64,000 nt of DNA from Haloplanus natans DSM 17983 (lineage in GTDB: Archaea > Halobacteriota > Halobacteria > Halobacteriales > Haloferacaceae): positions 558,001-622,000 of the forward strand of contig NZ_KE386573.1 in NCBI RefSeq assembly GCF_000427685.1, given 5' to 3'. This document shows positions 1 to 13,071 of this stretch, one piece after another. Below the pieces are notes generated by a model that had not been told where the DNA came from, ran no database searches, and saw only the letters and a list, made by a program, of their open reading frames with translations. How positions within the stretch are numbered: position 1 is the stretch's first letter; every line of letters starts with the position of its first letter. The translations under genes and the position numbers were made by a program.

Positions 1-586
1 ACCTCCAGCGCGTTTCCCCCGGCTCCTCGAGGCAATTCGGCTCCTCCGGCTCCTGTACGCACATCACCGCGTTGCGTTGCGTATCAAAATGGCTCCGGAG
101 GTTGATCGTGAGATAGTCGTATCCCGGTCCGAGCGTTGCCTGAGTGGAGTGCGTGGAGACGTTTTGAGCGATAGTTTCCTCTCTCGACGAACCTTCGTCC
201 GTCGTCACCGTCCGCGTCTCCGTCGTCCAGTAGGCTACCCGCACGATCACCTCTTTCTGCTCCGCGTTGTACCCGCGTTTGCTCCACAGCTGGAGCTTAT
301 CTCGGTTGACCGTCCGGCCTTTCTCCAGGTACCGCCAGCTCGGAGATTTCTCTCCCTCCTGGACGAGCAGCCCCGTAGGGAGCACTTTCACCGCGTACTC
401 TGAGTACGAGCCCGCTGCTCGGACCGACGGCGGAGCGTTCGCTGGATGCTGACCGTTCGGCCGCAGCTGCTCCAGCGTGAGATCCGTCACACTCCCGCCG
501 GACTGACCGGCCACCGGTCCGACCGCTCCGAGCCCGAGGCTCCCCGTCACGATCACGACCGCCAGGAGTGCGACGGAGCGCCTCAC
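1..586 (-). CDS. Secreted protein of the membrane-protein operon, 3' end beyond window
   Basis: The frame is open from a GTG start at 586 to the window edge, giving 195 codons and no stop. The start overlaps the stop of the preceding gene as GTGA, which fixes it. The first residues are Arg-Arg followed by a hydrophobic stretch (SVALLAVVIVTGSLGLGAVG) and then VAGQSGG, a typical Sec signal peptide, so the protein should be exported. The mature part is polar and rich in Thr, Glu and Tyr. Two Cys lie near the visible end, in MCVQEPEEPNCLEE. I do not recognise a family. As the last visible gene of a seven-gene operon of membrane and secreted proteins, it is probably part of the same structure. Confidence 0.75.
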   Translation of the reverse strand, partial: MRRSVALLAVVIVTGSLGLGAVGPVAGQSGGSVTDLTLEQLRPNGQHPANAPPSVRAAGSYSEYAVKVLPTGLLVQEGEKSPSWRYLEKGRTVNRDKLQLWSKRGYNAEQKEVIVRVAYWTTETRTVTTDEGSSREETIAQNVSTHSTQATLGPGYDYLTINLRSHFDTQRNAVMCVQEPEEPNCLEEPGETRWR

Positions 587-1014
587 TCCTGGACCCTCCA
601 CGCGACTGCCAGGAGCAGCGCGAATAGCCCGATAAGGCTAAACTGCCACCAGAGTACCGTGATCTCCCCCGACAGCCCGATAGCACCGAGACCGATAGTC
701 ACGAGTCCGGCCGTGAACACCGGGAGATCCGGGACGAACTGGAGTAGCATCCCGACGCCCTTCGCGCCGGTCACACCCGCCGACGCCAGCCCACCGAGCG
801 CACCGACGAGCGCCACGCCGAGCAGGTTAAACCAGCTCCCGAAGCCGCTTTTCGCGTTTTCTGCGAACCCCGAGACCGCCTCGGAGCGATCCTCCGCGTC
901 CTCGTAGGCGTCGTACGCCCACGCCGTTGCTACCAGCCCGAGCACTCCCGTCAGCGAGAGCCCCGGATGATTGAAAGCCCACGTTGCGGCTCCAGAGAGC
1001 CACTCTATCGGCAT
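583..1014 (-). CDS. Small four-segment membrane protein
   Basis: This 143-residue protein has hydrophobic segments at about residues 18-37, 61-83, 99-114 and 119-138. A charged acidic loop (DAYEDAEDRSEA) lies between the first two. It is Gly/Ala rich, as expected of a compact integral membrane protein. It has no recognisable family motif. Its stop overlaps the start of the downstream secreted protein by GTGA, so the two are probably translated together. It is one of five consecutive small hydrophobic proteins following the spike-like gene. A role as a structural membrane protein of a virus or vesicle is inferred from this context only. Confidence 0.75.
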   Translation of the reverse strand: MPIEWLSGAATWAFNHPGLSLTGVLGLVATAWAYDAYEDAEDRSEAVSGFAENAKSGFGSWFNLLGVALVGALGGLASAGVTGAKGVGMLLQFVPDLPVFTAGLVTIGLGAIGLSGEITVLWWQFSLIGLFALLLAVAWRVQE

Positions 1015-1035
1015 GATCGGTACCTCCGTCTCTTG

Positions 1036-1302
1036 TTACGTTTCATCGTTCGTGTCTCCTAAATCGAGAGCTCGGCCGACCCCGTAGAGCAGGAACGCCA
1101 ACAGGAATAACGGACCGAGCTTAGGGAACGCCGCGAACTTCGGCGCGATAAAGCGGTTGTACGCTCCGAGGAGCGGGAACCAGATTTGCTCCGTGGTGAG
1201 CGCCCACGAGCCGATCCCGCCGAGCGTCCCCACGATCCACGTTCCCGCCGCCGTGATCACCGCGCCGACTCCGCCAGCTCCCTTTTTTCCTAATTCAACC
1301 AT
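1036..1302 (-). CDS. Small two-segment membrane protein
   Basis: This is an 88-residue protein. It has a Lys/Gly-rich start (MVELGKKGAGG), one hydrophobic segment at residues 12-35 and a second at 62-79, then an acidic tail (LDLGDTNDET). Its ATG overlaps the end of the preceding gene by 13 bases, which supports coupled translation within the operon. The sequence between the segments (WFPLLGAYNRFIAPKFAAFPKLG) is aromatic and basic. I do not recognise a family. It belongs with the run of small hydrophobic proteins between 583 and 2591. Confidence 0.7.
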   Translation of the reverse strand: MVELGKKGAGGVGAVITAAGTWIVGTLGGIGSWALTTEQIWFPLLGAYNRFIAPKFAAFPKLGPLFLLAFLLYGVGRALDLGDTNDET

Positions 1303-1754
1303 GATCCTATTCCATCCCGTACGCCGTCCGCACCGGGAATCACCGAGATCCCCGCGTAGACGAGCACGTAGATCACTCCGACCGCGATTGATCCCGCTAT
1401 CACGGCCGCGATTGCCGACGCTATCGGTGCTCCGAGACCGCCCGAGACTGCGATCTCATAGACCGGATCGTAGATCAACCCCGGCACCGTTCGGAGCGCC
1501 TCTCCGACTGGACCGAGCCCCTCGAGGAGACTGTCCACCGCCAGGGAGATCTGTCCCGTGACGATTGAAACCGCCTCAAGTACGAGACCGATCAGGTACC
1601 CCGCGAGATCGAACACCTCTCGCACCACGAACTCACCGAGGTTGTTACGAATCCACCGTTGCGGATTCGTTGCTATCGTGATGAGCGTGTTTACCAGTGG
1701 TACCAGCGGTCTAAGATCTAAGATCCAGTCCGGGATCGTCGGGCCGTCAGCCAT
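1290..1754 (-). CDS. Small membrane protein of the operon
   Basis: I chose the ATG at 1754 (MADGPTIPDWILDLRPLVP), which overlaps the stop of the preceding gene as TAATG. An upstream extension in this frame reads as Arg/Gly-rich nonsense antisense-type sequence and was dropped. The 154-residue product has a hydrophobic N-terminal segment, an amphipathic middle (VFDLAGYLIGLVLEAVSIVTG) and a long hydrophobic C-terminal segment (PIASAIAAVIAGSIAVGVIY and onward). No family is recognised. Gene order and overlap place it in the same polycistron as its neighbours. Confidence 0.72.
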   Translation of the reverse strand: MADGPTIPDWILDLRPLVPLVNTLITIATNPQRWIRNNLGEFVVREVFDLAGYLIGLVLEAVSIVTGQISLAVDSLLEGLGPVGEALRTVPGLIYDPVYEIAVSGGLGAPIASAIAAVIAGSIAVGVIYVLVYAGISVIPGADGVRDGIGSWLN

Positions 1755-2152
1755 TACGGAGTCACCCGATCCGAGAGCACCGAGAGGATTGCTACCACGG
1801 CCGCGATCTCCGCCCCGAGCAGTATCGGAGCAAAGACCGGAGACGCCTCGAGAGCAGCGCGGAACGCCGATCCCCACGCCAGTTGAGCCGCCTCTCCAGC
1901 TCCACCGATCAGTCCCGTGAGTAGATCCGATACGAGCCTCTCCAGCCACGAGAGCACGCGGACGTGCGCCTCTACGTAGGCGTTAAGTACGGCGGTGATC
2001 CCGCCCACGAGCGCCAGCCACGCCCCTCCCGCAAGCGTGCCGAGGAGCTTCCCCCACCGGATCCAGTTGTCACCAGTGCCGACGTACTGAGAGGGATTGA
2101 ATACGCTCGTCCCCCCGGATCCGGATCGTTTGAAAGGGTCGCTCAGGCCCAT
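1754..2152 (-). CDS. Small membrane protein of the operon
   Basis: This 132-residue protein starts with a soluble, Gly/Ser-rich head (MGLSDPFKRSGSGGTS). Hydrophobic segments follow at about residues 37-60 (LGTLAGGAWLALVGGITAVL) and 106-126 (VFAPILLGAEIAAVVAILSV), with a weaker one between them. The ATG lies one base past the stop of the preceding gene, and its own stop overlaps the next start. No family is recognised. Its size and topology resemble the small membrane proteins of tail-less haloarchaeal viruses, but that is a resemblance of type and not a shown homology. Confidence 0.72.
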   Translation of the reverse strand: MGLSDPFKRSGSGGTSVFNPSQYVGTGDNWIRWGKLLGTLAGGAWLALVGGITAVLNAYVEAHVRVLSWLERLVSDLLTGLIGGAGEAAQLAWGSAFRAALEASPVFAPILLGAEIAAVVAILSVLSDRVTP

Positions 2153-2153
2153 C

Positions 2154-2591
2154 CTATTCCTCCTCGTTATCGTCCGCGTTGAGTCCGATCACCGGGATGT
2201 TGGTACCCGTGCCGAGGAAGTCCGAATCGCGTCGATCCAGGAACCACACGAGCATCCCCACGGTTCCGAGCACCGCGGCCGCGAATACCATGATCACGAA
2301 CGGGCCGAGCGTATTCCACGGCTCGAGCCCGACCGCGGTTGCCGCGGTGTTCCACACGTCCTGGAGAGCTCGGCCGGGAGCTCGGAGAAACCCGAAGGTC
2401 AGCGCGATACTGGACTCCGTGAGAGCGTCCACGTTGCCCGTCACGAACCCCGCCAGCGCCTCACCGATCCCGATAAAGATGGCAAAGAACGCCAGCACGA
2501 GCCCACCGAGCCCGTTTATGAACACTTGGCCGAATCCACCCTGGGATTCCGCCTCGTTGATGTAGGTCAGCGCGTCGTCCAGCCGAGCCAT
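2154..2591 (-). CDS. Small membrane protein directly after the spike-like gene
   Basis: This 145-residue protein has a soluble N-terminus (MARLDDALTYINEAESQGGF), a long hydrophobic stretch with two close segments (INGLGGLVLAFFAIFIGIGE), an amphipathic middle (FGFLRAPGRALQDVWNTA), and another segment (PFVIMVFAAAVLGTVGMLVW). It ends in a polar acidic tail (ADDNEEE). It begins three bases after the stop of the spike-like gene. In pleolipoviruses a small multi-segment membrane protein is encoded next to the spike. This gene is the best positional candidate here, although family membership is unproven. Confidence 0.75.
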   Translation of the reverse strand: MARLDDALTYINEAESQGGFGQVFINGLGGLVLAFFAIFIGIGEALAGFVTGNVDALTESSIALTFGFLRAPGRALQDVWNTAATAVGLEPWNTLGPFVIMVFAAAVLGTVGMLVWFLDRRDSDFLGTGTNIPVIGLNADDNEEE

Positions 2592-2594
2592 AAT

Positions 2595-4061
2595 CTACCC
2601 GCCTCGTTTGATCAGCCCGAGCGTAGTTAGGAGCCCCACGATACCGCCGACGGCCCAGTTGTAGGCGCTCGTGAACGGGTTGCTCCCGCCCGAGCTCCAG
2701 AAGCCACCGCCGCCGGTATTCTGGAGAGCGTCCACCTCCTCCTCAAGCAGCGTCGGTGTGATCTGGACGACATACGTCGTTCCGCTTTGGCCCGTTGCGT
2801 CCAGCGTGATCGTGTTTCCTTGCTCACCGAGATCGCTCGAGGCGTCTACCCACGAGCTATCAGCGATCTCGGAGGTGGCTGTCTCACCGACGCCCTCCAC
2901 GTAGCGGAGTCGCTGGTACCGCTCACCAGCGAGAGCCTGCTCTGTGACGAGCTTCAGCTGGCCGTGCGTCAGCTCGTACGCCGTTTCCACGTTGATCCGT
3001 CCCTCGAGCACCAGTTTCGACGGGTACCCGCCGATGTTGTCCGCGTCCACGATCTCCGCGGAGTAATCGTCCGGCTGATCCTGGAGCCGGTAGCGAAGAT
3101 CGTAGATCTTCATGCGGCTTATCGTAGCGTCGTCGAATGTTTGACCGAGCGAATCCGGAGACGTGACGTTGATTATCCCGCCAGTCGGCCGCTCCTCCAC
3201 CGTTTCGCTCGTCCAGTCTCCGTCAGCATCCTGGTAGCGGTGCGTACCGAACGACCACATGGACTTTCGCTCCGCGTTGAGCGCGGTGATTGTCACCTGA
3301 GCGTCCGAACCCGACACCCGAACAATCACCATCTGGATCCCGTCGAAAGAGCCGTCACCGGATCCCTCCACAGCGAGATCCCCGATCCGATGCTGGTAGA
3401 TCACGCCCGAGGCGGTCGCGTTTGCGATCACGTCTTTCGAGCTGGCGATCTGAGAGGAGTTGATAGACGGAGTGATCTCGTCACCGTCTCCGTCCTGGAG
3501 CACGATCTCCACCGTCGCACCAGCGTCCAGCTGCTCCACGTTTCCGATCAGCTGGAGCACTCGTTTGTTCGGATCCCTCGTCTCTGAGAGACCGGAATAC
3601 GTTGCGGTGGCCGTCCCGGTGTTCGAGCTGGTGGAGAACGTCAGCGACTCCACGCCCTCTCCGGTAGAGCCGTCGGTCTCCGAGACCGACACGCCGGAAG
3701 TCGTCCAGTCCGAGGCGTTTGTCCAGCTGGCGGAGTTGTTACTCTCTGAGCTCGTCCGAGGGAATTGATTAAAATCCGATTCGGAGATCCGGTCCGCTCG
3801 GATCCCTACGTCGTTGCCGCTCTCAGTCCCGTTGTGACGAGCCTCGAGCTCCACCACGTTGCCCTCGTTATTTTCGTACTCCAGCGTCTCCATCGTCTCC
3901 ATGTCGTGAGTGAGCTTCGTCAGCTCGTCTTCCTGGACGTACGTCGTGGGGTACTCCTCCGCGCTCGTGTTGACCGTCACCGCGGCCACCGCCGGCATTG
4001 CTACCGAGAGCACGAGCAGCGCCGCCAGCGCGAGAGCTCCCCCCCGCATCCGGGTATTCAT
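2595..4061 (-). CDS. Spike-like secreted protein with C-terminal membrane anchor
   Basis: This is the first and largest gene of the left-edge operon, at 488 residues. It has a classic signal peptide (MRGGALALAALLVLSVAMPAVA, cleavage near residue 26) and a long Ser/Thr/Asn/Asp-rich ectodomain with many N-x-S/T glycosylation sequons. An acidic stretch before the end (LLEEEVDALQ) is followed by a Gly-rich linker, and one membrane segment near residues 465-485 (NWAVGGIVGLLTTLGLIKRG) ends in basic residues. Signal peptide plus a single C-terminal anchor is the layout of pleolipovirus spike proteins, which are of similar length. It is also that of ordinary surface glycoproteins, so the viral reading rests on the downstream series of tiny membrane proteins. 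Confidence 0.8.
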   Translation of the reverse strand: MNTRMRGGALALAALLVLSVAMPAVAAVTVNTSAEEYPTTYVQEDELTKLTHDMETMETLEYENNEGNVVELEARHNGTESGNDVGIRADRISESDFNQFPRTSSESNNSASWTNASDWTTSGVSVSETDGSTGEGVESLTFSTSSNTGTATATYSGLSETRDPNKRVLQLIGNVEQLDAGATVEIVLQDGDGDEITPSINSSQIASSKDVIANATASGVIYQHRIGDLAVEGSGDGSFDGIQMVIVRVSGSDAQVTITALNAERKSMWSFGTHRYQDADGDWTSETVEERPTGGIINVTSPDSLGQTFDDATISRMKIYDLRYRLQDQPDDYSAEIVDADNIGGYPSKLVLEGRINVETAYELTHGQLKLVTEQALAGERYQRLRYVEGVGETATSEIADSSWVDASSDLGEQGNTITLDATGQSGTTYVVQITPTLLEEEVDALQNTGGGGFWSSGGSNPFTSAYNWAVGGIVGLLTTLGLIKRGG

Positions 4062-4330: not shown

Positions 4331-4534
4331 ATGGCAGCCGAGAAAGAGGGGGAGAACCAGAACGGAGATCTCGTGAAGGTGCAGCACGATGAAAGCGCGG
4401 GCCGGTACCACGTCACTCTCCCCGTGGATTGGGTCCGTGAGAACGGAATTACCGAGGGAGAACAGCTTTACGTTGGAGATAGCGACTCCGAGGAGTCCAC
4501 GGGAATCCTCGAGCGCGTCTCCAATCTCTTTTGA
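4331..4534 (+). CDS. AbrB/SpoVT-type DNA-binding protein
   Basis: This is a 67-residue protein. Its core (LVKVQHDESAGRYHVTLPVD, then WVRENGITEGEQLYVGDSDS) matches the swapped-hairpin AbrB/SpoVT fold, with a strand, the LPxxW turn, a short helix and the G-D-x-L/Y-V-like strand. Such proteins bind DNA as dimers and act as small regulators or as antitoxins. No toxin partner gene is adjacent. The gene is divergent from the membrane-protein operon, and near-repeat words just upstream make autoregulation or control of that operon likely. It ends in a short hydrophobic tail (ILERVSNLF). Confidence 0.75.
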   Translation: MAAEKEGENQNGDLVKVQHDESAGRYHVTLPVDWVRENGITEGEQLYVGDSDSEESTGILERVSNLF

Positions 4535-5140: not shown

Positions 5141-8089
5141 TTAGTTGTCGCGCCGGGCGGCCAGCAGCGCAGCCGCGATGAGCGCGATGACCGCGACGAG
5201 GGCACCGAAGCCGGGACCGCCGCCCTCAGTGGGCGTCGGCGTGGCCGTTGCCGTGTCCGTCGGCTCCGGCGTCGCCGTCGGTTCCGGCGTCGGCTCCGGC
5301 GTCGGCTCCGGCGTCTCCGTCGGAGTCGGCTCCGGCGTCGCCGTCGGTTCCGGCGTCGCAGTCTGGCGGTTCTGGACGATCTCCACGGTCTCGGTGTCCG
5401 TGTTGTAGCTGTCGTCGGACTCGAGCGTGTACGTGCCCGTCTGCACGTCCTCGAGTGCCAGCGAGACCTGGTAGGTGCCGTCCATCGACCAACTGTCCGT
5501 AGTGGTCAGGGCGACGGAGTCACCCTCCTGGGTCAGCAGCTCCACGGTGATCGCGTTGTCGTCCGGCACGAGGTTCGTACTGCCCTCGACGACCATCGTG
5601 TCGTCGACGGCGATCGGGTTGACACCCGAGGCCTCGGCGCCTTCGGGGTAGACGTTCTGGATCGTCGTCTGCGCGTCAGCGTAGCGGAACTGCTGGGTCA
5701 CCATCCGGTCGTCGCTCGCGACTTCCTCGGTCGTCTGATCGAGGATGCGCGCACGGATCTGGTCACCCGTCAGGCCCGCGTTGCTGAGGTTGGTCTCGAC
5801 GAACGTCGAGAGGCTACCGCCCGGGATCGTGCCGTCACCGTAGTCGCCGTCACGGCCCGGGATCAGGACGTGCACGCTGACCTGACCCTCTTGGAGGCCC
5901 TGACCGCCGGAGACGCTGAGTTCGTCTTCCTCGAACGTGTTGTCGTCGTCCACCGAGATGGACTCGTAGTTCGCGTTCCCACGCTCGCCGACGAAGATCA
6001 CGTCGACGTTCTGGTTACCCAGAGCCGTCCCGGTGACGTTCACTTCGTCGTCCTCGATGGCCACCTGGCCACCGACCGTCTGGACGGTTGCGCTCAGTTC
6101 GGTGTCGACCACACGGAGGGACTTCTGACTGCTCGTCCCCGTGTTGAACGCCGAGACGTTGAGCGACGAGTCGGGGTTACCCGTACCACCCGCGTCGGCC
6201 GTGTCGATCACGCCGATGCGGTAGCTGCCGGGCAGCGAGAGGATCTCGTTACCTCCGCCGTCACCCTCCGAGAGGATGACGTCTTCGACTTCGAACGTGT
6301 CGTCAGCGTCGACGCTGATCGACCCGTCGACCGGACCGCTGCTGGCACCGTCGTTACCGGTTTCGGTACCGTCGACGTCCAGAAGCTGGTAGTCGCCCTG
6401 GCGCCGGATGTAGAGCGAGACATCGTCGATGCCCTGACTCGCGGAACCATTGATGGTCACTTCACTGCCGACCACGTAGGTGTTGTCCGGAGTCTCGAGG
6501 GAGACCTCACCTTCTTCGACGGTGAGCGTCGGGTCGTCTTCGGGCTCCTGCCCGTTGACGATCTCCGTCGGATTCGTGCCCGACGCGTGGAGGTCAACAT
6601 CGACGTCGGTCGTATCGAGGTACTGCGTCTCGATCTGACCGACACCGACGCCCGTGTCGTCGTCGATGGTGACGTTGGCGTAGGCGTACTCCACGGTGCC
6701 GACGGTGTCACCGTTGCTGATCTCCGTCCGGGTGAGCACGCTGTTGGAAGCGTTGATCAGGCCGACATCGTTCGTGTCACCGACCTGGCGGAAGATGCGC
6801 GCCGAGTCGAGGTTGCTGTTGGTGTCACGGAAGTCTTCGGCGTCGATGACCACGTAGTGGTTGTCACCAGCGTCCGACCCACGGAGCGTGAAGGTCACGT
6901 CCTCACCGCGCGTGGCCGTTTCCATGTCGAGGTCGTTGGTGATGTCGTCGTCACCGGTGACGGTGATTGTCGTCGACTCGGTCGCCGACCCGAAGTCGAG
7001 GTCGTCGCTCCCAGCGACGGTGACCGTGTAGGTCCCCGTCCCGAGGTCGGTCAGGTCGAGGTTCCAGGTGACGTCCTCACCGTCGGTGTTGGCGCCCTTG
7101 ACCGCGGGGCCACCGTTCTGGGTGAGCGCGTCGCCGGTCACGTCGAGGCCGGTGTCGTCCTCGACGGTCAGTTCGATGTTCTCGGACTCCTCGTAGTTGT
7201 AGTCGGCCACGACGTCGAGGTCACCGGAACCGGTTCCGGTGGTGGGACCGCTAGGGCCACCCTCGCCCTCGCGGACGGAGCCGCCAGCGATGTCCTCGCC
7301 GTTCGTGTTGAGGATTTCGAGGTCCTCGATCTGGGGCTGCAGGACCGTCACGCCGTAGACGCTGTCCTGGAACTGGTCGGGACCGTTCTCGTCGTACTGG
7401 CCGGTCGCCTGGTCGTCGTCGATCGGGATCGTGAGGGTCTGGCCCTCGGCGCCACCGCTGACGCCGATCAGGGAGTCGACCTTGCTCCCGGTGGAGTCGA
7501 CGAACGTGATGTCTTCCTCACCCTGGAAGACGGTGGAGCCATTGTAGACCTCACCGCCGCCCGAGCCCGGAGATTCCCGGGTTGGCTGGACAAGATCGAA
7601 GGTCGGCGAAGCCGACACCGATCCATTATTCGCTGCGGAGATCGGGACGCTGACACCGCTCTGAGCGGTGTTAAGGCCCGTGGTGTCGTGCGTCAGGGTG
7701 AGTTCAAGCGTATCACTATCATTTCCAACAGTGTTACCGCTCTCAGTGACCGGCACGGAAACCGTGCCGCCTGCGAGAGAGGCACTACCAGCGGATAGGT
7801 CGGTGCTTCCAGTGAAAGAAGCCCCACTGACCGTGGTCGAGACGCCACCTGGGACGTTCGACAGGTCAAATTCAATCGTGTCGCTTGTGCTGTTATTGAG
7901 CTCTACATCCACCGCAATCGTCTGCGACGCCGACGAACGCTGAAGTGTAACGTCATCGGCGGACGCACCGCTGAGGTTAGTTGCCTCAGCTGCAGCCGTT
8001 CCAGACAGCGCCACGGTGCCAGCGAAAACTGAGAACACCATAAGCGCGGCCAAAATGACTGCGCGGATTTTCTGATTATAGTCTGTCAT
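5141..8089 (-). CDS. csg: S-layer (surface) glycoprotein with PGF sorting signal
   Basis: I chose the ATG at 8089 (MTDYNQKIRAVILAALMVFS), which gives a 982-residue precursor. The frame is open further upstream, but only this start begins with the typical haloarchaeal surface-glycoprotein signal peptide, ending GTAAAEA near residue 35. The ectodomain is acidic and rich in N-x-S/T sequons. A segment with IPIDDDQATGQYDENG followed by LQPQIEDLEILNTNGEDIAG resembles the conserved N-terminal part of the Haloferax cell-surface glycoprotein. The end has a Thr/Pro/Glu stalk (repeats of TPEP, likely O-glycosylated), then PGF at residues 959-961, a hydrophobic segment and RRDN. This is the tripartite signal cut and lipid-anchored by archaeosortase ArtA. 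DNA for roughly the first 170 residues is clearly less GC-rich than the rest. Confidence 0.93.
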   Translation of the reverse strand: MTDYNQKIRAVILAALMVFSVFAGTVALSGTAAAEATNLSGASADDVTLQRSSASQTIAVDVELNNSTSDTIEFDLSNVPGGVSTTVSGASFTGSTDLSAGSASLAGGTVSVPVTESGNTVGNDSDTLELTLTHDTTGLNTAQSGVSVPISAANNGSVSASPTFDLVQPTRESPGSGGGEVYNGSTVFQGEEDITFVDSTGSKVDSLIGVSGGAEGQTLTIPIDDDQATGQYDENGPDQFQDSVYGVTVLQPQIEDLEILNTNGEDIAGGSVREGEGGPSGPTTGTGSGDLDVVADYNYEESENIELTVEDDTGLDVTGDALTQNGGPAVKGANTDGEDVTWNLDLTDLGTGTYTVTVAGSDDLDFGSATESTTITVTGDDDITNDLDMETATRGEDVTFTLRGSDAGDNHYVVIDAEDFRDTNSNLDSARIFRQVGDTNDVGLINASNSVLTRTEISNGDTVGTVEYAYANVTIDDDTGVGVGQIETQYLDTTDVDVDLHASGTNPTEIVNGQEPEDDPTLTVEEGEVSLETPDNTYVVGSEVTINGSASQGIDDVSLYIRRQGDYQLLDVDGTETGNDGASSGPVDGSISVDADDTFEVEDVILSEGDGGGNEILSLPGSYRIGVIDTADAGGTGNPDSSLNVSAFNTGTSSQKSLRVVDTELSATVQTVGGQVAIEDDEVNVTGTALGNQNVDVIFVGERGNANYESISVDDDNTFEEDELSVSGGQGLQEGQVSVHVLIPGRDGDYGDGTIPGGSLSTFVETNLSNAGLTGDQIRARILDQTTEEVASDDRMVTQQFRYADAQTTIQNVYPEGAEASGVNPIAVDDTMVVEGSTNLVPDDNAITVELLTQEGDSVALTTTDSWSMDGTYQVSLALEDVQTGTYTLESDDSYNTDTETVEIVQNRQTATPEPTATPEPTPTETPEPTPEPTPEPTATPEPTDTATATPTPTEGGGPGFGALVAVIALIAAALLAARRDN

Positions 8090-8281: not shown

Positions 8282-9886
8282 GTGATAGTGAGTATATCTG
8301 TGGTACGCCGCTTCATCTCAGAAAGAGAGTTGGCCGAAACGTACGGCCCGAATAAAGGATGGCAGACGGTTGAACAGTACCGAGAGGCACATCGACTTCG
8401 CAAGGAGAACCCGGATTTAGCCCGAGCCGAAATCGCTCGAAGAGTAGACCGTCCGGCAAGCGCAGTTCGTGGATGGTTGGTGGAAGACAAGACGCCGAAG
8501 CCGGTAAAGGCATTAAATGAAGCCCATCAGCGGGGATGGATTGATATAGAACCCACATCAGAACAATTCAGAGCAATTAATCAACTCGTAGCGTGGATCT
8601 TCTCGGGAGGAGGCGTTGCGGAACGCGCTTTTACACCTCACTTCTCCGTGGATGATTCACTCACGCTATCGACTGTTTCTCAACTTTTGCGATGGGTTGA
8701 TCTAACATATCGAATCGATAGTGATCGGCCAGAACGTGGAACTGTTGTCATCCCGCGTCAAGCAGCATCGGTGTTTGGACGGGTACTGTATGTCCTTGGT
8801 GTACCGAGGGGAGTCAAAGCTCATAAACAGAAATTAGGATTACCGGAGTATTTGACCACGCTCGCTGAGGAACATCAGCGAGATTTCTTAAGAGTGTATG
8901 TACTGAACCGTGGACGAGACCTCCGCAAAAATAACATCACGGGAACGTACTTACACAGCCTCCGATCCGAAACGTTCTGTGAAGAAATCAAAAATTTAAT
9001 CGAGTCTGTAACGGAAGGGACAGCGACTGTTGGAAGTAAGAAAGAGGTATGGATCTCAGCCAACTCAGTTCGTGACCTTGCTGGAGGCAGGCCAGTTCGT
9101 CCAGCAATAGCCACGGGGGTAGCCTTTGGTTCGCTCACTCCTCCGACTGAACGCGCTTTTGCTTCTACTTACAGAGTAGGCAAGAACCCTGGAGGCTATC
9201 GATATCTTCACTTGTATGAACAAGTGAGTGAAAGTGACGAGACCGGGTATAAATTAATGAAGCAAATCGATGATCTCAAACTGTCATCGATACAAAGCTG
9301 GGGTCAAGGTAGCCGACCGTATGTAAAAAATGGGACGGAGGCTGTACGCGAACTTGGATGGATTACTCCCACAGCAGAGGGAAAAACTGCGCTTGCACTC
9401 ACCTCATTAGTTGCGTGGGTGTTCGCGCGCGGATCAATTCGTTCGGATAGTCATTACCCTGTGTTCAGCATTAACTCTTGTGACCACCGAACATCTTTTG
9501 AAGAAATTGCTGATACGCTGAATCTTTCATATGAGATTATCCGTGAGGATGACCCTGATCGTGCTGGTGAGGCTCGTCCAACTGACAATAGCTCCGTTCT
9601 TGGACGGCTACTCTCGGTTCTCGGAGCTCCATTAGGAAAAAAGAGTGAACTTACGCACTTTCCGCCAGCGTATCTATATTATTACCCCAGACACGCTCGC
9701 CGATTTGTCGAAACGTGGTGCATACACTATGCTAATAGAGATGGTAAATTAACAATAACTATCCCACCTCGGCTAGGGGAACGATTTGCAGATGGGCTTG
9801 AGATTCTTCTGACTGAACAGTTATGTTGGCAGACCACTCGAACAGGAAAACGTGAATTTGAGACGATTAGAGACGGTAACAACTAA
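8282..9886 (+). CDS. HTH protein with two degenerate LAGLIDADG-like domains
   Basis: This is a 534-residue protein from a GTG start at 8282. Residues about 40-65 (ARAEIARRVDRPASAVRGWL) form a helix-turn-helix. Two similar halves follow, near residues 90-265 and 365-530. Each opens with a LAGLIDADG-like helix (NQLVAWIFSGGGV; TSLVAWVFARGSI) and has a second one after a conserved stretch (VLYVLGVPRGVKAHKQKLGL then FLRVYVLNRG; LLSVLGAPLGKKSELTHFPP then FVETWCIHYANRDG). The order matches homing-endonuclease lobes, but the catalytic acidic residue at the helix end is missing in at least three of four motifs. It is therefore probably a DNA-binding protein derived from a homing enzyme. The DNA is visibly lower in GC than all neighbours, suggesting transfer. 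It is divergent from the S-layer gene. An active nuclease remains possible. Confidence 0.7.
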   Translation: MIVSISVVRRFISERELAETYGPNKGWQTVEQYREAHRLRKENPDLARAEIARRVDRPASAVRGWLVEDKTPKPVKALNEAHQRGWIDIEPTSEQFRAINQLVAWIFSGGGVAERAFTPHFSVDDSLTLSTVSQLLRWVDLTYRIDSDRPERGTVVIPRQAASVFGRVLYVLGVPRGVKAHKQKLGLPEYLTTLAEEHQRDFLRVYVLNRGRDLRKNNITGTYLHSLRSETFCEEIKNLIESVTEGTATVGSKKEVWISANSVRDLAGGRPVRPAIATGVAFGSLTPPTERAFASTYRVGKNPGGYRYLHLYEQVSESDETGYKLMKQIDDLKLSSIQSWGQGSRPYVKNGTEAVRELGWITPTAEGKTALALTSLVAWVFARGSIRSDSHYPVFSINSCDHRTSFEEIADTLNLSYEIIREDDPDRAGEARPTDNSSVLGRLLSVLGAPLGKKSELTHFPPAYLYYYPRHARRFVETWCIHYANRDGKLTITIPPRLGERFADGLEILLTEQLCWQTTRTGKREFETIRDGNN

Positions 9887-11259: not shown

Positions 11260-11444
11260 TCGACGCCGAGCCCTTCGCCTCTTTCGACAACGGAGTGGCG
11301 TGGTACTACGAGTCCGACGACGCCGACTCGGTACGCTACGAGGGTACTGTGGAGCTATATTCGGGGTGGGTTCGGCTCGTCGATCCGCTCGGTATCTCGA
11401 CGTGGGTTCCGCGCGAGCGCGTTGAGCAGGTGCACGAACGATGA
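11256..11444 (+). CDS. Small acidic protein immediately before the integrase
   Basis: This 62-residue protein starts with a GTG that overlaps the previous stop (GTGA), and its own stop overlaps the integrase start (ATGA). The sequence (YEGTVELYSGWVRLVDPLGI, STWVPRERVEQVHER) looks like a small all-beta fold. No named family is recognised. Strict overlap on both sides indicates co-translation with the integrase. It is the second candidate for an integration accessory protein. Confidence 0.68.
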   Translation: MIDAEPFASFDNGVAWYYESDDADSVRYEGTVELYSGWVRLVDPLGISTWVPRERVEQVHER

Positions 11445-12499
11445 GCGACGGACCGACCGACCTTTCGCCCCGTGAGGCGGCGAAGCGGTATCTGGACCGG
11501 CGCCGTCGGGAGCTCACCGACGAGTCCGTGGACTCGTACTACTATCGGCTGAAACTCTGGTGGGAATGGTGTGAGCGGGAGGGGATCACCTCCGTCCAGA
11601 ATCTGACCGGCTGGACGTTCGAGCTGTACGAAGGCTACCGCTCCGGACTCGGTGTCGCTACGAGTACGCTCCACGGGGAAATGGAGACGCTCCAGCAGCT
11701 CGTGGAGTACCTCGAGCGGATCGGCGCCGTGGAGGAAGGGCTCGCCGAGAAGGTGAACGTTCCCGAGGTGCCGGAAGACGAGAAGTCACGGGATACGAAG
11801 CTCGAGACGGGCCGGGCAATCGGCCTGATCAAACACTACCGGGAGAGCTCGGAACTCTACGGAACGCGGTTCCACGCGCTCCTCGAGCTGGCGTGGCACA
11901 CGGCCGCCCGCTTGGGCGCGCTTCGCGCGCTTGATCTACGCGATTACCATCCCGGTGAGGGATTTGTGGAGTTCGTCCACCGAGCAGAGACGAGTACGCC
12001 ACTCAAAAACAAGCTGAAAGGCGAGCGGACTGTCGCTCTCCGGGAGCCGGTCTGTGAGACGCTGAACGCGTACATCCGGCACCACCGTCGGGACGCACAC
12101 GACGACGCCGGTCGTGAACCGCTGTTCGCCTCGTTTCAGGGGAACCGCCCATCTACGGGTACGCTTCGGACGTGGATGTACCGGGCCACTCAGCCATGTA
12201 TGCGCGGCTCCTGCCCTCACGGGATGAATCCGGCCACCTGCGACTATCGATCTCATAATCAAGCGAGCCAGTGCCCGTCCGTCCGAGCACCTCACCACGT
12301 CCGGACTGGCTCGCTGACGTGGCACCGAGATCGTGGTGTCCCGAAGGAAGTCACCGCCGAGCGAGCGAACGCGTCCACTCGCGTGATCGACCGATACTAC
12401 GACAAAGCGACTCAGCGCGAGCGGATGGAACTGCGCCGACGACCGCACCTGGACAAACTATCACTTGACGATGATATCGATTCGGAAACGGATGAGTAG
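11441..12499 (+). CDS. Tyrosine recombinase (SNJ2-type integrase candidate)
   Basis: This is a 352-residue site-specific recombinase. The N-terminal helical core-binding domain covers residues 10-115 (AAKRYLDRRRRELTDESVDS). The catalytic domain has Arg157 (TAARLGALRALDLRD), a Lys in the beta-hairpin (TPLKNKLKGERTVAL), His285-x-x-Arg288 (PHHVRTGSLTWH), His295, and the nucleophile Tyr at 319/320 (VIDRYYDK). Between Lys and His lies an insertion with four Cys (253, 258, 267, 278), probably a zinc site, a feature I associate with haloarchaeal integrases. An operon of small overlapping genes ahead of it matches the integration module of pleolipovirus SNJ2. The gene ends about 570 bases before the CRISPR array. 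No tRNA gene serving as attachment site is visible near it. Confidence 0.9.
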   Translation: MSDGPTDLSPREAAKRYLDRRRRELTDESVDSYYYRLKLWWEWCEREGITSVQNLTGWTFELYEGYRSGLGVATSTLHGEMETLQQLVEYLERIGAVEEGLAEKVNVPEVPEDEKSRDTKLETGRAIGLIKHYRESSELYGTRFHALLELAWHTAARLGALRALDLRDYHPGEGFVEFVHRAETSTPLKNKLKGERTVALREPVCETLNAYIRHHRRDAHDDAGREPLFASFQGNRPSTGTLRTWMYRATQPCMRGSCPHGMNPATCDYRSHNQASQCPSVRAPHHVRTGSLTWHRDRGVPKEVTAERANASTRVIDRYYDKATQRERMELRRRPHLDKLSLDDDIDSETDE

Positions 12500-12870
12500 C
12501 GTACGTCAGATGGTCGGATTTGCCGCCTGTTGCATCCCGGGCGGTCCCATTCATTTATTACGGAATTAGCCCCTGAGGCGCGCGTTCGGGGCTCTCGTAC
12601 CACGATCCGCGAGCGGTCGCTGGAGGTGGTCGGGATGAACCGTGTCCTCGAGCTCAATCCACCGACTTGCTCTCTCTGCCCTCTCGAAAGGGAACAAATA
12701 ATGACTGGTTGCCATGTGGCCCGAGCCGGTGAGGTGGTGACAGGAGAGCAAGACCTGGGTTAGACACCCTTCGGGGTCGACTGAGCTCCCCGTCCTTCCG
12801 TCGAGAATTGCGGCTCAATCAGCCTGGGATGTCGGCAGGTCGAACAAAATTTCACACCCCACTAAGCGAG
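12500..12870. other. Gene-free stretch between integrase and CRISPR leader
   Basis: I see no credible gene, tRNA or tRNA fragment in these 370 bases. Two weak hairpins are present: GCCCC...GGGGC around 12570-12595 and GACACCCTTCGGGGTC around 12764-12779. If the integrase belongs to an element inserted here, one attachment site should fall in or close to this stretch, but a single junction cannot be recognised without the partner repeat. Confidence 0.4.
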
Positions 12871-13071
12871 CGCATACATTTGGGCATGGACGCATCACTC
12901 ACGGCTCCAGCCGGACCTGAATGCGACTACATCGAAATATACGAATCCGATCGCCAGATCTGTGTGCCCTATCAGTCGACCCCCCCGGGGGTTCGGAGGT
13001 TACTGGAGGTCGACGGAAATTACTTGAGCCAGGCAGCAGATATTGGGTCTGTGTGCCCGAAATTGGGCATG
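12871..13071 (+). promoter_or_regulatory. CRISPR leader
   Basis: This is the non-coding stretch directly before the first intact repeat. The opposite end of the array carries the decayed repeat, so the leader and the youngest spacers are on this side and transcription runs to the right. It has a moderately AT-rich part and, next to the array, a near-duplicated word (ATTGGGTCTGTGTGCCC and AAATTGGGCATG), which may serve as the promoter-proximal or integration motif. A short frame that crosses the leader into the first repeat is not considered a gene. Confidence 0.6.

Follow-up and report, generated by a model that had tools for sequence, protein, structure and literature searches.

A conserved spike, membrane-protein and ATPase module on an element integrated at tRNA-Pro in Haloplanus natans: a candidate for a tailless haloarchaeal virus

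What does a run of seven closely coupled genes, for a spike-like surface protein followed by a series of small membrane proteins, build, and what kind of element carries it? The genes open a 64,000-nucleotide stretch of the Haloplanus natans DSM 17983 genome (the window, G000:C7:558001-622000). In our reading, the operon is a structural and morphogenesis module that forms particles, and the temperate mobile element that carries it is most likely a tailless, enveloped haloarchaeal virus with PAV1-type kin through its ATPase and regulator; we give this reading a probability of about 0.6.

First, the operon itself was examined. A check of the open reading frames (ORFs) of the window placed all seven on the minus strand (Table 1), with the spike first and the small membrane proteins behind it, as a sequence-only reading had described. 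The junctions were gaps of 1-3 bp or 21 bp and overlaps of 1-19 bp, varying with the start chosen. The hydropathy scan gave each small membrane protein about 1-3 strong membrane segments, which makes the description of five proteins as almost entirely membrane somewhat strong. Proteins a and b are paralogues (hhalign, probability 98.4). The seventh protein, of about 600 aa, has a signal peptide, but it is not simply secreted as had been proposed, since several internal membrane helices are present.

The operon was then followed to the left of the window edge in segment L002 (C7:543001-562500; L002 position = window position + 15000). The P-loop ATPase gene that a leftward extension was to look for was located just beyond the edge, and further small membrane ORFs were also present in this continuation. 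It contained no pilus, secretion or transporter genes, and no cellular complex was matched.

The ATPase was present in 62 of 392 genomes of the haloarchaeal order (about 16%, or about one in six species; one is a fragment match only), and a profile search for the ATPase yielded the same bounded family. Weak profile matches in 72 further genomes were partial, mostly to the P-loop region of long ATPases, and were not counted. In the 41 loci examined the gene order was kept: a divergent AbrB-like gene, the spike, 4-8 small ORFs (a range taken from loci where they could be counted), the ~600-aa protein, a ~260-310-aa protein, the ATPase, a large surface protein, a ~100-aa membrane protein and a DUF7845 protein. 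Departures from it included the insertion of an MCM helicase, displacement of the large protein, and truncation at a contig end. The recurrence of this order across 41 haloarchaeal loci shows that the operon is more than a chance arrangement. The ~600-aa, ~260-aa and ATPase genes were present in all 30 named loci of the species collection, among them loci from Haloarcula, Halorubrum, Halobellus, Halorussus and Natronomonas, and 27 of the 30 have the spike. Plasmids pNG100-pNG400 of Haloarcula marismortui, which are larger (33-50 kb), carry the ATPase, and the one that was read (L063, presumed to be pNG300) has the module order; their module genes are mostly annotated as hypothetical.

The ATPase ties the module to known viruses. 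Comparison with the pTN2/pIRI48-type ATPases gave an hhalign probability of 99.4 (E = 4e-21, 271 columns), and the ATPase also matched phrog_22963, the family of the pIRI48 ATPase (E = 1.2e-10). The pIRI48-type ATPase gene has been reported as a homologue of PAV1 ORF375, which stands in tandem with ORF137 (PMC3543421). As judged from these alignments, the module ATPase is a homologue of the PAV1-ORF375 family, known from spindle-shaped viruses, PAV1 itself being linked through the cited study. As for the regulator, the protein with DUF7845 and helix-turn-helix (HTH) domains matched PF25227 (E = 2.2e-90), its family matched LSV-48N CDS26 (8e-112), and such a protein has been reported in PAV1 (PMC12934983, preprint).

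The module thus resembles PAV1 and the pTN2-type Thermococcales plasmids in its ORF375-family ATPase (a direct match via pIRI48, pTN2 and pP12-1), and PAV1 in the DUF7845 + HTH protein. It may also resemble PAV1, which was compared by description, in its many membrane proteins, in surface proteins with jelly-roll or lectin-like domains, and in a helical protein gene just upstream of the ATPase gene. PAV1-type viruses have two large lectin-domain membrane proteins; the module has two large surface proteins, and its spike has a jelly roll like that of carbohydrate-binding modules (CBM) by Foldseek. Unlike PAV1, the module has haloarchaeal hosts. Its ~260-310-aa protein contains a ~105-residue domain that is duplicated in tandem (the halves align at 99.4) and is predicted from its sequence to be helical. 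PAV1-137 is a four-helix bundle that forms dimers (PMC3603647). However, the helical protein showed no sequence similarity to pIRI48 gp9, the PAV1-137 homologue, so the analogy with PAV1-137 is positional only, and it matched none of the solved structures.

The operon belongs to a mobile element integrated at tRNA-Pro, as supported by an attachment (att) repeat, an integrase and a relative in which the site is empty. The element, of about 23.5 kb (C7:547029-570550), sits at the 3' end of the tRNA-Pro gene, and its right att repeat begins 38 bp past the tyrosine integrase gene. The left flank joined to the right flank occurs uninterrupted in a same-family relative (G397:C1:2757582-2757811; 81% over 232 columns), where tRNA-Pro adjoins the right flank and the alignment reaches about 113 bp past the junction; the ~23.5 kb are therefore an insertion. 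A second, diverged family member with the same gene set was found in the same genome on a contig of 16,546 bp (L044, G000:C3:1-16546), whose ATPase is 44% identical to that of the window element. Operon genes lie at both ends of this contig, which is likely circular, although there is no terminal overlap and the end ORFs join only with a frame offset. Within the window element, a 534-aa ORF at window 8282-9886 on the plus strand lies where the GC content falls to about 49%, from 60-70% in the surroundings, and had no clear family match.

Table 1. Positions of the operon genes, their leftward continuation and other features of the element
Feature	Length	Position	Strand	Remarks
~600-aa membrane protein, N-terminal part		window 1..601 (<1-601)	-	Runs past window edge; 599 aa complete
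Small membrane protein e	143 aa	window 583..1014	-	3 transmembrane (TM) segments
Small membrane protein d position	88 aa	window 1036..1302	-	1-2 TM
Small membrane protein c	154 aa	window 1290..1754	-	3 TM; start ATG at 1754
Small membrane protein b	132 aa	window 1754..2152	-	2 TM; hydropathy scan
Small membrane protein a	145 aa	window 2154..2591	-	2 strong TM; hydropathy scan
Spike-like surface protein	488 aa	window 2595..4061	-	Signal peptide; all-beta ectodomain including a jelly roll of carbohydrate-binding-like type; membrane helix at the C-terminus (model residues 465-485)
AbrB/MazE-fold regulator		window 4331..4534	+	PF04014, E 2.9e-4, under curated cut-off; divergent, conserved position adjoining spike gene; recurrent in loci
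S-layer glycoprotein, HVO_2072 family	982 aa	window 5141-8089	-	TIGR04216, 746.7 bits (cut-off 400); halobacterial signal peptide, PGF-CTERM
Tyrosine integrase	352 aa	window 11441-12499	+	PF00589, E 8.8e-6, 1 bit below curated cut-off
Right att repeat CCGGGCGGTCCCAT	14 bp	window 12537-12550	+	Repeats the 3' end of tRNA-Pro; left counterpart lies outside window, at G000:C7:547029
~600-aa membrane protein, complete	599 aa	L002 13802-15601	-	
Tandem-duplicated helical protein	310 aa	L002 12883-13815	-	
P-loop ATPase	443 aa	L002 11555-12886	-	From ATG at 12886
Large surface protein	878 aa	L002 8743-11379	-	Signal peptide and C-terminal helices
DUF7845 + HTH protein	563 aa	L002 5801-7492		Convergent to operon
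tRNA-Pro gene		L002 3969-4041		

Several results weigh against a viral origin of the module. No capsid, spike or membrane protein matched a known virion protein in hidden Markov model, profile-profile or structure searches. In Foldseek the spike was matched over a single domain, with a query TM-score of about 0.2. Several carriers are recorded as plasmids. The ATPase and the spike had no match among INPHARED phages, where the ~600-aa protein gave only chance-level matches, and two IMG/VR scans with the ATPase found none; these scans depend on conserved peptides, and absence is therefore not proven. No replication gene, a rolling-circle Rep included, was recognized in the window's element; some relatives encode Orc1/Cdc6, MCM or recombinases.

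Neither a particle nor a capsid-protein homology was found, and a tailless virus and a vesicle-borne element are therefore both kept. A plasmid spreading in self-encoded membrane vesicles, as pR1SE does, with the module making specialised vesicles and not infectious virions, is a possible but doubtful explanation, which keeps some weight because such a plasmid would look similar from sequence alone. It is consistent with a membrane-rich module lacking a recognized capsid protein, with the occurrence of the module on plasmids of Haloarcula marismortui and on a small contig, and with the failure to find the ATPase in IMG/VR. Like the pR1SE/apHPV plasmid-vesicle elements, the carriers are haloarchaeal plasmids or integrated elements with large surface proteins. 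However, when set against the published core gene list of pR1SE (PMC10818511), none of the ten module proteins contained an S8 peptidase domain, and the module ATPase is of PAV1 type, whereas pR1SE ORF25 has been likened to VirB4/HerA.

A conjugation or secretion machine on integrative plasmids, in which the spike and the large protein would be adhesins and the ATPase the motor, is unlikely. A conserved membrane complex with a single ATPase on plasmids and integrated elements would suit it, but no VirB4/VirD4/TrbE-like or relaxase family occurred among the module proteins, the carriers are typed as non-mobilizable, and the ATPase is kin to a spindle-virus family.

The pleolipovirus comparison made in the sequence-only reading failed, while its outline of a mobile element was borne out by the att repeat, the integrase and the empty site. 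The Pleolipoviridae share the outline (spike, membrane proteins, ATPase), integration at tRNA genes and haloarchaeal hosts with the module, and one weak single-sequence match linked the ~600-aa profile to HRPV-1 ORF6 (E = 0.0036). Nevertheless, no homologous core protein was detected: profile-profile comparison of the module with VP3, the VP4 spike, ORF6, ORF7 and the VP8 ATPase gave probabilities of 7 or less throughout, and no pleolipovirus spike was named among the top 50 Foldseek matches of the predicted spike. The ~600-aa protein as a fusion of ORF6 and ORF7 was rejected despite that E value (hhalign probability below 5). A divergent member of the Pleolipoviridae is thus very improbable. 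A domesticated remnant that serves the host as a surface structure is scarcely credible, because the S-layer gene within the element and the carriage in many genomes are outweighed by the empty site, the diverged second copy, the integrase and the patchy distribution.

Other known elements were also compared with the module. No homologue of the His1 or SSV1 capsid proteins (Halspiviridae, Fuselloviridae) was found, and the small membrane proteins, several with 2 TM, matched neither SSV1 VP, His1 VP21 nor the membrane proteins of LSV-48N. The major capsid protein of PAV1-type viruses is a hydrophobic alpha-helical hairpin. LSV-48N, a lemon-shaped virus of Haloferax that is circular, integrative and 24.9 kb long, has the DUF7845 + HTH protein and, in common with some relatives, a tyrosine integrase homologue (1.3e-32); only these two are common to it and the module family, and its structural genes and ATPases were not alignable with the module beyond the P-loop. 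An IMG/VR scan with the plasmid relatives of PAV1 found nothing. Halfvol2, an induced provirus of Haloferax volcanii (PMC7911831), is similar by description only: it has 12.3 kb, ten TM proteins, tRNA integration and no known virus homologues. Haloferax volcanii also encodes a DUF7845 protein. The element group is best read as undescribed and as absent from the virus collections searched.

The spike and the ~600-aa protein were modelled. In the AlphaFold2 model of the spike (pLDDT 84.5), the ectodomain was all-beta and a helix formed the C-terminus. The top PDB match of this model in Foldseek was the turret of Haloferax tailed virus 1 (HFTV1; E = 4e-4), followed by agarase, CBM28 and tailspike domains, and among viral models it matched CenC/CBM proteins. 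The ~600-aa protein, modelled as its Halobellus homologue (pLDDT 78), had a beta ectodomain, two TM hairpins flanking a cytoplasmic domain and a long C-terminal helix. This model had no meaningful structural match among viral models, and weak, partial matches of the protein to a tape-measure family (PHROG) and to cellular proteins were discarded.

The element also carries a gene for a surface-layer (S-layer) glycoprotein. Its product was 96% identical to that of the resident gene (C7:52981-55949) from residue 393 on and 70% before; the nucleotide alignment was much diverged in the first ~900 columns and nearly identical afterwards. The resident copy has GGGG where the element copy has GG, possibly through a sequencing error, and in this assembly its ORF is therefore broken into pieces of 403 and 586 aa. 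Two further elements hold an S-layer gene adjoining the AbrB/spike end, G136 (L151:13974-16481) and G263 (L159:12062-14983), with 85% and 76% identity to the respective resident copy; in both, the divergence lies in the N-terminal part, where it is mild in G136, and the C-terminal part is conserved. The scanned flanks contained 4 S-layer genes, one of them probably outside its element, against a rough expectation of 0.5 that rests on our assumed gene density. The carried variant could serve a change of receptor or superinfection exclusion, a role of which the titles and abstracts listed by a literature search gave no report. G296, from the same genus, carries about six paralogues of S-layer type (for example L175:12442-15408), one of which lies near its element, probably outside it.

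If the module is viral, the following course may be proposed. The element would excise and replicate as a circle, and the divergent AbrB-like regulator would govern the operon. The small membrane proteins would gather in the cell membrane and give the envelope its shape. The ~600-aa protein would bridge the outside face and a cytoplasmic complex, made up of the ATPase and the duplicated helical protein, that may recruit or package DNA. The spike, whose jelly roll is probably sugar-binding, and the large protein would be displayed by the particle and attach to the S-layer when a new host is met, and release would take place by budding, without lysis. In some elements the variant host S-layer gene could alter the carrier cell's receptor and thereby prevent superinfection.

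We put forward, tentatively, a wider proposal: an undescribed, widespread family of enveloped haloarchaeal viruses, related to PAV1 and present in about 16% of the species sampled. Their proviruses would repeatedly carry a copy of the host's S-layer gene in which the N-terminal part has been replaced, and would so re-dress the host to exclude competing viruses or change their own receptor. If this is true, a large group of probable viruses, carried by about one-sixth of sampled haloarchaeal species, with Haloarcula marismortui as an example of a laboratory strain among them, is missing from sequence-based catalogues, and haloarchaeal elements are tied to hyperthermophile spindle-shaped viruses through a common ATPase and regulator. 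The S-layer cargo would offer a directly testable model for a provirus that alters its host's receptor.

A search of 148 family genomes for CRISPR-spacer-like matches to the operon gave none that was convincing. Halobaculum litoreum DT92 has two module copies (L092 and L093) on one chromosome record. A 26.6-kb contig titled Rhizobium sp. S152 (L094) contains a haloarchaeal module that resembles that of Halobaculum litoreum, and it is probably a contamination of the Rhizobium assembly.

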